From: Pseudomonadota bacterium
GTDB taxonomy: Bacteria > Pseudomonadota > Alphaproteobacteria > Sphingomonadales > SMXR01
DNA length: 36,671 nt
NCBI GenBank assembly: GCA_022566215.1
Contig: JADFJJ010000009.1
Location: forward strand, 1 to 36,671
Direction: 5' to 3'
Shown here: positions 4,249-10,323 of the stretch, piece after piece
Numbering within the stretch: position 1 is the stretch's first letter
Layout: each line of letters starts with the position of its first letter
The notes under the pieces: model-generated
The model's database searches: none
Told to the model about the DNA's origin: nothing
The model's input: the letters and a program-made list of their open reading frames with translations, nothing else
Made by a program: the position numbers and the translations under genes

Positions 4249-4326
4249 TTTCAAACCGATTCCTCTTACTATATAGGGAAACACCTAGTTTGAACAACCA
4301 AACAGGTAACCTTGAGCCAATTTACT

Positions 4327-4593
4327 ATGCGCGTCGCAGATATCATAACCGCGAAACTTCGGGAAGCTTTTTCTCCCGATCAGCTTGAGGTTATCGATGT
4401 CAGCGAGCAGCACCGCGGCCACGGCGGCTGGCGCGAGGGCGGCGAGACCCATTTTCATGTGGTGATGCGGACCAAAGCCTTTAACGGTAAATCCCGCCTC
4501 GCGGCCCAGCGCGCGGTCAACAAAATCCTGGCCGAAGAACTCGCCGGCCCGGTCCACGCCCTGACCATGGATGTCAGGGGGATGGACGATTAA
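4327..4593 (+). CDS. bolA: BolA family protein
   Basis: MRVADIITAKLREAFSPDQLEVIDVSEQHRGHGGWREGGETHFHVVMRTKAFNGKSRLAAQRAVNKIL: BolA fold signature. ORF listed from TTG 4312; ATG 4327 likely. Confidence 0.9.
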   Translation: MRVADIITAKLREAFSPDQLEVIDVSEQHRGHGGWREGGETHFHVVMRTKAFNGKSRLAAQRAVNKILAEELAGPVHALTMDVRGMDD

Positions 4594-4597
4594 AATT

Positions 4598-4999
4598 TTA
4601 GGGTTTGTTCGGCTGATACCGGAACCTGACCTCGTAATCCAGACACTGGGCGCCGCCAACTTGCTTGCTGTTGACACAAACCCCGCCAACCGTCGCATCA
4701 CAGCTGTAAACTTGACCAGCGGCCTGCCAGGGTTGACCACCCAGGGTGCGGCATTGAATACCTAACGGGCCGGGATCAATTATGCCAGCCGCCACGAAAT
4801 CCTTCACGGTTTCATAATCTCCTTTCCCTGAGGGGTTGTCACGGTCCAGCCAATCTGTCCAAGGCTCTGTGGCATTGGCCCCTTGGCCCTGGGCTCCTTT
4901 CTCTTTTTTCTTGCCCTCCTCCTGGGCGATTGATATGGAAGACAGACCCATCACTGTGGCAAGACCTATTGCCAACGAAATTTTTGTTAACTTGTTCAT
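4598..4999 (-). CDS. Small secreted protein with a WxxW (Mucin2_WxxW-like) domain
   Basis: Signal peptide MNKLTKISLAIGLATVMGLSSISIAQ, then WTDWLDRDNPSGKGDYETVKDF...IQCRTL...GQVYSCDATVGGVCVNSKQVGGAQCLDYEVRFRYQ. WxxW start, four cysteines and C-LDYEVRF ending match my recollection of the mucin/CILP WxxW domain. ORF track starts at 5035; ATG 4999 fits the signal peptide. Confidence 0.78.
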   Translation of the reverse strand: MNKLTKISLAIGLATVMGLSSISIAQEEGKKKEKGAQGQGANATEPWTDWLDRDNPSGKGDYETVKDFVAAGIIDPGPLGIQCRTLGGQPWQAAGQVYSCDATVGGVCVNSKQVGGAQCLDYEVRFRYQPNKP

Positions 5000-5033
5000 A
5001 AATGCTCTCCCGATTTTATGACGTTGGGAACGC

Positions 5034-5063
5034 ATTATACAATAAAAACTGTCGGTTGATCAA
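5034..5063 (-). promoter_or_regulatory. Sigma70-like promoter for the WxxW-domain gene
   Basis: Minus strand TTGATC-N18-TATAAT, about 35 nt upstream of ATG 4999. Confidence 0.6.
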
Positions 5064-5179
5064 ATTAGGAGAAGATAACGCTTATTTGGTGACGGGTTTT
5101 CCGGCCCGCGTCATCTTGACCTTCATTCCCGCCTTTGAGCTGACGACCCAAGGATTTGGAAAATTGGGTCCAAGTAAAA

Positions 5180-6463
5180 TTAATTCTTCTTCGATTTCTT
5201 CTTAACTTTCGTGATCTTGATTTTGGTGATCTGGTTCTTGCGCCGCTGGCTGACCTCAAATTCCAGGCCCTTGAGGGTAAATTTCTGCCCAACGTAGGGG
5301 ATAATCTCGGCCACATGAATAACCAGGCCGGCAATCGTCGCCGCCTCTTCATCGGGCAGGTCCCAACCGTATTTCCGGTTCAGGTCGCGGATCGACATCT
5401 CCCCGCTGACCAGAACCCCGCCGCCTTTCAGGCGTTTGCTGGCGGCGCCTATTTGGTCGTGCTCGTCGCGGATATCGCCAACAATCTCCTCCAGGATGTC
5501 CTCGAGGGTAATCAGGCCCATCAGCACCCCGTATTCATCCACCACCAGCGCAAAATGGACCCGCCGCTTTAAAAAAGCGTCCAGCTGCTCGCGCAAGGTA
5601 GTGGTTTCCGGGACGAACCAGGGTTTGGTCATAATCTTGTTTATGTTCAGCGCAGCGGTTTCCCGCTCCCCTTTCCGGATTGCTATCAAGATATCCTTGG
5701 TATGCAAAACCCCGGCAATGTTTTCCCGGTGGCCCTGATAAAGCGGGTAGCGGGAATAGGCCCCCGCCACCGCCTGGTCGATAATCGCCTCCGGCGTATC
5801 TTCAAAGTTCAGCATGACCATGTTTTTGCGGTGGATCATGATCTCTTCGACCAAAATCTCATCGAGATCGAGGATGCTTTCCAGCATATCCTTGTGGGCT
5901 TTAAATATCCGCCCCTCTTCGAGCTGGACATCAAAGGTGCCGCGCAGCTCCTCATGGCCGGAGAGCACGTACTCTACATTCGAGGTGTCGATGCCGAACG
6001 CTTTCAGGGTGACGCGCACGATGTTTTGCACCACCACCACGATGGGGCTGAAAATCCGGATAAAGAAATTGATCAGCGGGGCCACCGAAAGGGCCATTTT
6101 ATCCGGGTTCGAAATGGCGTAGGTTTTGGGCAGCACCTCGGCGAACACCAGCACCAGGGTGGTCATAACCACGGTGGCGATAGCGACCCCCTGATCGCCG
6201 AAGATCGAGATCAAAAGCCCGGTGGCCAGCGCCGAGGCCAGAATGTTGACGAGATTGTTGCCCAAAAGGATCCCGCCGATCAGCCTTTCCTTGTCCTCCA
6301 GCAGTTTTTCCACCAGCCGCGCGCTTTTTTTGCCGCTGCTAGCCATGCGCTTGATCCGGGCCTTGGAAGAGGCCGTCAGCGCCGTCTCCGAGCCCGAGAA
6401 AAAGGCGGAAATGACCAGCAGCACGAAAATTGCGATCAGGGAAATGATTTGAAATGTGGTCAT
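5180..6463 (-). CDS. CorC/HlyC-type transporter (DUF21/CNNM + CBS pair + CorC_HlyC domain)
   Basis: N-terminal DUF21: FFSGSETALTASSKARIKRM; CBS region ... VDEYGVLMGLITLEDILEEIVGDI; 427 aa. Confidence 0.93.
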   Translation of the reverse strand: MTTFQIISLIAIFVLLVISAFFSGSETALTASSKARIKRMASSGKKSARLVEKLLEDKERLIGGILLGNNLVNILASALATGLLISIFGDQGVAIATVVMTTLVLVFAEVLPKTYAISNPDKMALSVAPLINFFIRIFSPIVVVVQNIVRVTLKAFGIDTSNVEYVLSGHEELRGTFDVQLEEGRIFKAHKDMLESILDLDEILVEEIMIHRKNMVMLNFEDTPEAIIDQAVAGAYSRYPLYQGHRENIAGVLHTKDILIAIRKGERETAALNINKIMTKPWFVPETTTLREQLDAFLKRRVHFALVVDEYGVLMGLITLEDILEEIVGDIRDEHDQIGAASKRLKGGGVLVSGEMSIRDLNRKYGWDLPDEEAATIAGLVIHVAEIIPYVGQKFTLKGLEFEVSQRRKNQITKIKITKVKKKSKKN

Positions 6464-8249: not shown

Positions 8250-8381
8250 ATGAAAAAATACATTATTATTGGAATTGCCGCAGTGTTTGGGATCGGGTTT
8301 TTGGCGCTTTTGACAATCGATATCCCGGCCCCGAGCGAGGATGTGGAAAGAGTAATCCCGGATGAAGAATTTCCACAGTAA
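8250..8381 (+). CDS. Small single-TM protein, 43 aa (below ORF-track cutoff)
   Basis: My translation: MKKYIIIGIAAVFGIGFLALLTIDIPAPSEDVERVIPDEEFPQ*. Overlaps the start of the downstream gene (ATG 8362) by 20 nt, consistent with translational coupling. Confidence 0.65.
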   Translation: MKKYIIIGIAAVFGIGFLALLTIDIPAPSEDVERVIPDEEFPQ

Positions 8382-10323
8382 GATCACCGCCTTCCTGTTT
8401 TCTGTTTTATTTCTTGGCCTGGCGGTCACCGCCCCCGGCCAGGAACAGGACCCGGCCACGGAAGAGCAAGGACGCCAGGTTTTTTACCTGACCCTTCAGG
8501 GCCGGGACATTACCGTACGTGACGGCGAAACAGCTGAGGAAAGACCGTTTCAACCCGCCACCGGAGGGCCCCTTGAAATCGGGCCCAATCCCTATCTGGA
8601 CCGTGAAACATTCAAGGGCAGAAGTTTCAGGCTGGTACAGCAGGAAGAAAACCTGGGCCCCGGGAAAGAGAAAACCGCAGAGGTTGAGCAAACCGAACTG
8701 GACCCCCTGAATCTTGACGCGATTGGCCTCTTGGCCGCCGGCGGGACCGGTTATCCGATTGATTTGTGGCAGGGATCAGATGTCCGGGAGCTGCTGGTGC
8801 TGATATCCGCCCTGCCCGGTGGCACATCATCGCCCACCGCCAACGCCATCAAGCGCAAGCTGCTCCTCAGTTCCGCCCCGTTCCCGATCACTCCGGAAAG
8901 CGGGGTTGAGATTGAGGATTTGCTGTTCCAGCGCCTCGCCCAGCTATACCGAGCCGGGGACCTGGCATCCCTCTTGAGCCTGTTCGAGCAGATCCCGGCG
9001 GCTGAACGCAGCCCGAGAATCTCACGAATGATGGTCGAGGCCTACCTGCTGGACGGGGATATGGAAAGCGCCTGCACCTTGGCCAAGACCGGCCAGCGCG
9101 AGGAGGGCACCCCGGACTGGCTGAAAATTACCTCGATCTGTTTGGTCCTGGAGGGTGAAGAAGGCCAGGCGCGCTTTAACCTGACCCTGCTGACCGAAAC
9201 CGGGGATATGGATTTTGCTTACCAGAGCCTGTTTGAAGGTGTCGTCAAGCTGGTGAGCGAGCAACGGGGGGAAATATCAACCCTGGCGATGGAGGAGGGG
9301 GATGGCGGCTTTTCAAACTTTTTTTCAGGCCAGTTTTTCCTGCTCTCAGAACTGACGCCGCTGCATGTGGCGATTTTGAAACTGCTGGGCCGGAACGTGG
9401 AGATCGCGCTGGATGAGAATGCCGGGATTTCCAACGTTTTACTTTCCGCCCTGGCCCGCTGGTCGGGATTGACGCTCGAGACCAAGCTGGAGGTGGCCGA
9501 CCAGGCCCTTGCCGGGGGGATTCTGGAAGAGCATTTCTTGAGCACTCTGGTTGGCGCCTACACATTTTCTCTCCAGGACAAGGAAACCGCGTACCTGCTG
9601 GATTATGAAAGCTGGGGGGTGAAAAGTGACGCTCTCTTTTACGCCCTGGCCAAAGAGGCATTTGATTTCGATGCCGCCATCAAGCATATCCGTGAAGGCT
9701 GGGCTCGGGCCCGCTACGGCGGCCGGGCGGCCTTTATAGCCGGGCTCTATATGGACGCGATGGCGGAAATTCCACCCGATCCCGCCTATATTTCCTTTGC
9801 CCCGGATGCCGCCCGTATCGCGCTGCTGACCGGCAACTGGCAAGTGGCGCTTTACTGGTACCAGACCGTCCACGCGCTCGCCTCCACCGGGGATGCCGAA
9901 GCGACCCGGATGCTGGTGGAAATGTGGCCGCTGATGGTGACCATGGATCAAGCCGGGGAAATTCCCTATTCGCCGCAAATTCTGAGGCTTTGGCGAAGAA
10001 GCCTGGAGATCCTGCCAGTGGAGGACCAAGTGGCGCAGACCCAGGTGTTCTACAAGATCCTGGAGGTGCTCGGGCTGCCGGTTCCCGATGATTTGAAATC
10101 AGAGGGTCTTTTGATCCTGGGGGAGACCAGCGGCCCGGAATTTATTGGCGGCGCGTCGCTGGGGGAGACAATCCTGAGGATCCTGACTGTATTTGGCGCC
10201 GCCGGGGCTGAAAAAGCCGCACCGATGACAGTTGCCAACGTTATGTATACGCTGACCGAGGCCGGGCTGGAGGCCGAGGCGCGTCAGCTCGGACTCGAGG
10301 CCCTGCTGGCCAGAGGCTTTTAA
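8362..10323 (+). CDS. Secreted/periplasmic protein of unknown function, probably alpha-helical repeat (TPR-like)
   Basis: 653 aa; signal-peptide-like start MKNFHSKITAFLFSVLFLGLAVTAPGQEQ; helical repeat-like remainder; no catalytic motif seen. Confidence 0.8.
   Translation: MKNFHSKITAFLFSVLFLGLAVTAPGQEQDPATEEQGRQVFYLTLQGRDITVRDGETAEERPFQPATGGPLEIGPNPYLDRETFKGRSFRLVQQEENLGPGKEKTAEVEQTELDPLNLDAIGLLAAGGTGYPIDLWQGSDVRELLVLISALPGGTSSPTANAIKRKLLLSSAPFPITPESGVEIEDLLFQRLAQLYRAGDLASLLSLFEQIPAAERSPRISRMMVEAYLLDGDMESACTLAKTGQREEGTPDWLKITSICLVLEGEEGQARFNLTLLTETGDMDFAYQSLFEGVVKLVSEQRGEISTLAMEEGDGGFSNFFSGQFFLLSELTPLHVAILKLLGRNVEIALDENAGISNVLLSALARWSGLTLETKLEVADQALAGGILEEHFLSTLVGAYTFSLQDKETAYLLDYESWGVKSDALFYALAKEAFDFDAAIKHIREGWARARYGGRAAFIAGLYMDAMAEIPPDPAYISFAPDAARIALLTGNWQVALYWYQTVHALASTGDAEATRMLVEMWPLMVTMDQAGEIPYSPQILRLWRRSLEILPVEDQVAQTQVFYKILEVLGLPVPDDLKSEGLLILGETSGPEFIGGASLGETILRILTVFGAAGAEKAAPMTVANVMYTLTEAGLEAEARQLGLEALLARGF

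Follow-up and report, generated by a model that had tools for sequence, protein, structure and literature searches.

The window is a stretch of 36,671 nucleotides from an alphaproteobacterium (Sphingomonadales; GenBank assembly GCA_022566215.1, contig JADFJJ010000009.1), and the gene described here encodes a small exported protein made up almost entirely of a WxxW domain, the module known as CysD in mucins. The open reading frame (ORF) translates to MNKLTKISLAIGLATVMGLSSISIAQEEGKKKEKGAQGQGANATEPWTDWLDRDNPSGKGDYETVKDFVAAGIIDPGPLGIQCRTLGGQPWQAAGQVYSCDATVGGVCVNSKQVGGAQCLDYEVRFRYQPNKP, beginning MNKLTK, and its features are collected in Table 1. The signal peptide ends SISIA↓QEEG and is followed by a short linker and the domain. 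A first-pass annotation made from the DNA alone had described this layout, with the domain as nearly the whole mature protein, together with a dedicated promoter and a tail-to-tail arrangement with bolA, and all of these were recovered. The promoter matches 10 of 12 consensus positions. Two such sites occur in the region where shuffled sequences predict 0.9, a weak signal on its own. A sister genome from this genus (L016/G001) has an identical -10 box and TTGAAC as its -35 box. MNK is the likely start, because an upstream in-frame ATG at 5035 lies within the -10 box and GGAGAG is placed 5 nt before MNK. The sister ortholog is 98% identical in protein and differs by six synonymous and three non-synonymous codon changes, a small sample that is consistent with purifying selection on a functional gene.

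Table 1. Features of the WxxW gene and its immediate neighbors in the window
Feature	Position	Strand	Evidence and remarks
CDS, exported single-domain WxxW protein, 133 aa + stop	4598..4999	-	ORF translation; sister-genome ortholog
Signal peptide, residues 1-25	4925..4999	-	Sequence inspection; SIA↓QEEG as probable signal peptidase I site; lipobox Cys absent
Lys/Glu/Gln linker, residues 26-45, QEEGKKKEKGAQGQGANATE, predicted disordered, isoelectric point 6.4	4865..4924	-	AlphaFold
Mucin2_WxxW (CysD) domain, residues 47-126	4622..4861	-	Pfam PF13330; Foldseek; cysteine co-variation
Domain cysteines (codon starts)	Cys83 4753; Cys100 4702; Cys108 4678; Cys119 4645	-	Sequence
Ribosome-binding site GGAGAG, 5 nt ahead of ATG	5005..5010	-	Sequence
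Sigma-70-like promoter TTGATC-N18-TATAAT	5034..5063	-	Consensus scan
bolA, convergent neighbor (context only)	4312..4593	+	PF01722, 83.7 bits
CNNM/CorC-type transporter, upstream neighbor (context only)	5180..6463	-	PF01595, PF00571, PF03471

The identity of the domain was established by profile and by predicted structure. PF13330 (Mucin2_WxxW) was the sole Pfam family above its cut-off, with 68.1 bits (E 1.1e-18; curated cut-off 22.4 bits) and an alignment of residues 47-126 to positions 1-86 of the 88-position profile; a search of NCBIfam returned no named family. A profile of relatives, from which the window protein had been left out along with its ortholog and paralog, scored the protein at 84 bits, and a chance match to WxxW was rejected since the best of 2000 shuffled sequences reached 8. 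Sequence search of the PDB returned mucin CysD chains only (E 3e-7 to 2e-4), and a 39-row family profile again recovered CysD chains of MUC2, MUC5AC and MUC5B, with E values down to 7.6e-19. The AlphaFold model, for which the 39-row alignment served as input, has a predicted local distance difference test (pLDDT) score of about 95 across most of the domain, while the linker is disordered (pLDDT <50 over mature residues 1-16). All eight significant Foldseek matches in the PDB were CysD-containing entries of MUC5B, MUC5AC and MUC2 (E 3.3e-6 to 5.4e-4), and the ninth match had an E value of 2.2. Template modeling scores, normalized by target, were 0.60-0.74 for six domain-length entries and 0.06-0.15 for two long MUC2 chains. 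Membership in PF13330 and a predicted CysD fold, both proposed in the first-pass annotation, are confirmed. No relatives were found in viral contigs, plasmids or phages, or in a viral structure library.

Six cysteine columns recur among the microbial WxxW members (39 rows, window numbering). Columns 75 and 128 are always kept or lost jointly (35 rows kept, 4 lost; p=1.2e-5), and columns 83 and 100 are both present in 18 rows, both absent from 20 and mismatched in one (p=3e-10), with p-values that are uncorrected for kinship and overstate the independence of related rows. Columns 108 and 119 are invariant in all 39 rows. From these patterns of co-loss we infer the pairs 75-128, 83-100 and 108-119. 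The first pair is absent from the window protein and from its ortholog and paralog, as it is from a single protein of gammaproteobacterial origin. Mucin CysD carries five disulfides (PMC11912381), formed by ten cysteines. With four cysteines in two pairs, the window protein could form only two of these, and the third bond of most microbial members has been lost as a pair; the earlier suggestion of a disulfide-bonded domain with paired cysteines stands in this reduced form. Cys108-Cys119 matches by spacing C1365-C1379, a named bond of MUC2 (PMC11912381). Acidic or polar residues are conserved at D54, D61, E63 and N110 in the family alignment. To our knowledge, no enzyme for C-mannosylation of the WxxW tryptophan is to be expected in bacteria.

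The likeness to mucin CysD (MUC2, MUC5AC and MUC5B; PDB 6TM6, 8OER, 8OV0 and 8S03; PF13330) extends to Pfam family, predicted fold, the equivalent of Cys108-Cys119 and a common layout, W-x-x-W...GDxE...C-x-N...C-x-DYEVR. The window protein differs in its two rather than five disulfides, its bacterial export and its lack of mucin repeats or flanking O-glycosylated regions rich in proline, threonine and serine (PTS), in place of which there is a 20-residue K/E/Q linker only. It also belongs to a separate clade. In trees of 30 and 35 domains, whose animal sequences are limited to vertebrate mucins with four human mucin domains, vertebrate mucin CysD is set apart from the microbial domains with support of 100/99 and 100/98, respectively. 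The window domain sits beside its paralog within the microbial set and is not nested among mucins. This set comprises proteobacteria, Acidobacteriota, Myxococcota, DPANN archaea and a ciliate, with deep branches that are mostly not resolved. The "animal-mucin-type" label of the first-pass annotation is accurate for family and fold but not for descent. A recent mimic of host mucin, taken from an animal, is very improbable for the window gene and we reject it: identity to human CysD domains is 33-39% and real cases do exist in other alphaproteobacteria (below), but in these trees the window domain falls among domains from environmental bacteria, from archaea and from a ciliate (identities of up to 59% beyond its genus), and the extra cysteines of mucins are absent from it. 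The WxxW domain of CILP belongs to the same Pfam family; CILP itself is a protein of the animal matrix that also contains TSP1 and further domains.

In most microbial members the domain is one module of a larger secreted protein. Stand-alone copies were seen only in the genus of the window, so that the stand-alone bacterial member noted at first pass is real but an exception. In Teredinibacter, the domain occurs as GH43 + RicinB x4 + WxxW x3 and as GH43 + RicinB x4 + WxxW x2, and another genome of this family has WxxW x2 + RicinB + PKD. A 1843-aa Teredinibacter protein (L095:4078-9606, +) combines GH16, WxxW, CBM56, F5/8C, PA14 and a di-haem oxidoreductase, with an extra module inserted within the WxxW loop. 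RicinB + WxxW occurs in Paraliomyxa, Kelch + WxxW in an acidobacterium, and subtilase + WxxW and PKD + WxxW in archaea. In these multi-domain relatives, WxxW seems to serve as an accessory domain, placed terminally or in tandem beside glycan-active or lectin domains. The Teredinibacter/Cellvibrio-type proteins share with the window protein the domain family and a secreted setting, but are joined to GH43, GH16, RicinB, carbohydrate-binding module or haem domains and have Ala/Phe in place of Cys83/Cys100. Given that other microbial members are mostly multi-domain, the window gene could be imagined as a decayed remnant of a larger gene; its own signal peptide, ribosome-binding site and promoter, and an ortholog that is 98% identical with mostly synonymous changes, make this highly implausible, and it is rejected.

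We propose, with a probability of roughly 0.55, that the window protein is a stand-alone extracytoplasmic module for binding or adhesion. Judged from sequence and model, it would be exported via Sec, fold beyond the cytoplasm into a single WxxW/CysD domain secured by Cys83-Cys100 and Cys108-Cys119, and be presented on a linker that is short and flexible. There, either periplasmic or on the cell surface, the domain would hold a partner protein or a polymer of the extracellular space, the latter probably a matrix rich in glycans. The binding step is suggested because of the modular partners of the relatives and because mucin CysD works by non-covalent, weak association (PMC11933400, PMC6861317). 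As for the target, a glycan or matrix is probable, at moderate confidence. Several points weigh against this proposal. The ligand is deduced rather than observed, and the neighbors of the gene (bolA, corC, aroB, aroK and cobST) are housekeeping genes that are uninformative on function. Carbohydrate modules accompany WxxW most strongly in the polysaccharide-degrading Teredinibacter family, and this may reflect lifestyle. The known contacts of mucin CysD are protein-protein and homotypic ones rather than glycan binding, and the N-terminal domain of the paralog, described next, has no match in Pfam or NCBIfam and is poorly modeled (pLDDT 50). The present data do not separate glycan binding from homotypic association. 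A minimal version of ~85 residues should be easy to express and would allow the basic activity of the domain to be assayed free of mucin glycans; candidate ligands are named by the microbial domain fusions.

The genome of the window holds two WxxW copies. The paralog (G000:C41, L014 6429-7490) is a 353-aa protein that resembles the window protein in its domain (66% identical), signal peptide, Lys-rich linker and loss of the cysteine pair 75/128, and adds an N-terminal, beta-rich domain of ~190 aa. This latter domain is also found in L021 and in a 641-aa protein without WxxW (L111). That the genome encodes another WxxW protein whose linker is likewise rich in Lys is compatible with homotypic association as in mucins, in which weak dimers would knit copies of the window protein and the 353-aa paralog together at the cell surface with no glycan binding. 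For MUC2 CysD2, weak homotypic dimerization is reported (Recktenwald 2024 as cited in PMC11933400), poly-CYS stiffens mucus (PMC6861317), and both Teredinibacter and the ciliate have WxxW domains arrayed in tandem. However, the Cys108-Cys119 loop is just 10 residues long and has no counterpart to the exposed Phe/Pro in the bead-docking loop of MUC2 (PMC11912381), and bacterial copies are mostly single and joined to unrelated domains. We regard this explanation as unlikely, though it is the one that competes most closely with a binding or adhesion module. Near the paralog, L014:5144-5695 (-) encodes an exported 183-aa protein with His as the first residue after the signal peptide; it scores 37 bits against the SCE4755 polysaccharide-monooxygenase-like family, below the cut-off of 75, and this sub-threshold match counts in favor of the binding or adhesion proposal.

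The domain is sparsely distributed. Matches were found in 2 of 61 genomes of nearest relatives, 4/385 of the class and 2/251 of the order, and a draw from the phylum yielded the source genome itself only (1/399). Elsewhere, 7 of 144 genomes in the Teredinibacter family, 1/189 in the phylum of Paraliomyxa and 4/194 in one DPANN phylum had a match. A scan of 84,980 species with environmental-type motifs, hence an undercount, gave 20 loci in Alpha- and Gammaproteobacteria, Acidobacteriota, Myxococcota, SR1 and Pace-, Woese- and Nanoarchaeota. The homologue and neighborhood survey suggested at first pass recovered homologues across bacteria, archaea and a ciliate, but only housekeeping genes around the window gene itself. 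This housekeeping setting might indicate a periplasmic role in metal/calcium or redox buffering or in envelope stress, with no link to adhesion; D54, D61, E63 and N110 are common to mucin CysD, which binds calcium (PMC11912381), and haem-domain fusions occur in the Teredinibacter family. The very sparse distribution argues against a core envelope function, and we consider such a role improbable. L020:2005-3585 (+), on a contig binned as Neisseriales, is open only if TAA and TAG are read as Gln, as in the ciliate code, and then contains four WxxW domains in tandem. This contig is probably a ciliate contaminant, and is evidence for WxxW in ciliates.

Mucin-type CysD domains do occur in other alphaproteobacteria. 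In a family with small genomes, 6 of 43 genomes contain PF13330, and their domains group with vertebrate mucins in the tree: the CysD of L013 is 64% identical to that of human MUC5B, and that of L102 is 61% identical to MUC2 CysD1. Pilin-like proteins with CysD are encoded at L013:5002-6390 (+), L012:5956-7659 (-), L101:847-1818 (+) and L115:5005-5913 (+), the type-IV-pilin-like N-terminus having been recognized by eye and not by profile. A 1624-aa protein (L114:2143-7017, -; also L103, L106 and L107; genome G1534) has a pilin-like N-terminus, two CysD domains, long Thr/Pro-rich tracts and Cys-rich segments, and its gene adjoins an autotransporter-like gene on a 203-kb contig. This is a mucin-like architecture in an alphaproteobacterium and resembles horizontally acquired mucin mimicry. 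The CysD domains of this group were apparently taken from hosts more than once, and such seemingly acquired host mucin parts may exceed the window gene in novelty.

CysD domains have been said to first appear in Bilateria (PMC9169620), and our literature search found no paper discussing bacterial WxxW domains. Tentatively, and with somewhat less than even confidence, we suggest that animals did not invent WxxW/CysD, and that it is an extracellular binding module widespread among microbes and used beside glycan-active enzymes, here in a minimal two-disulfide, stand-alone form. Animal mucins would then be one branch, and some host-associated alphaproteobacteria would later have retaken mucin CysD onto pilins.

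Turning to the surroundings of the gene, the stop codon of bolA at 4593 leaves a gap of 4 bp to the WxxW gene. Further along the window, 8362-10323 (+) encodes a protein of 653 aa whose start resembles a signal peptide and which matches nothing in Pfam or NCBIfam. In the sister genome, an insertion of ~1.9 kb (L009:1822-3742) separates the WxxW gene from corC, at a point corresponding to about 5174-5182 of the window. Its ends are inverted, the target duplication is 8 bp long (TAAAATTA), and it carries a passenger gene along with a transposase of 285 aa that appears IS1595-like.
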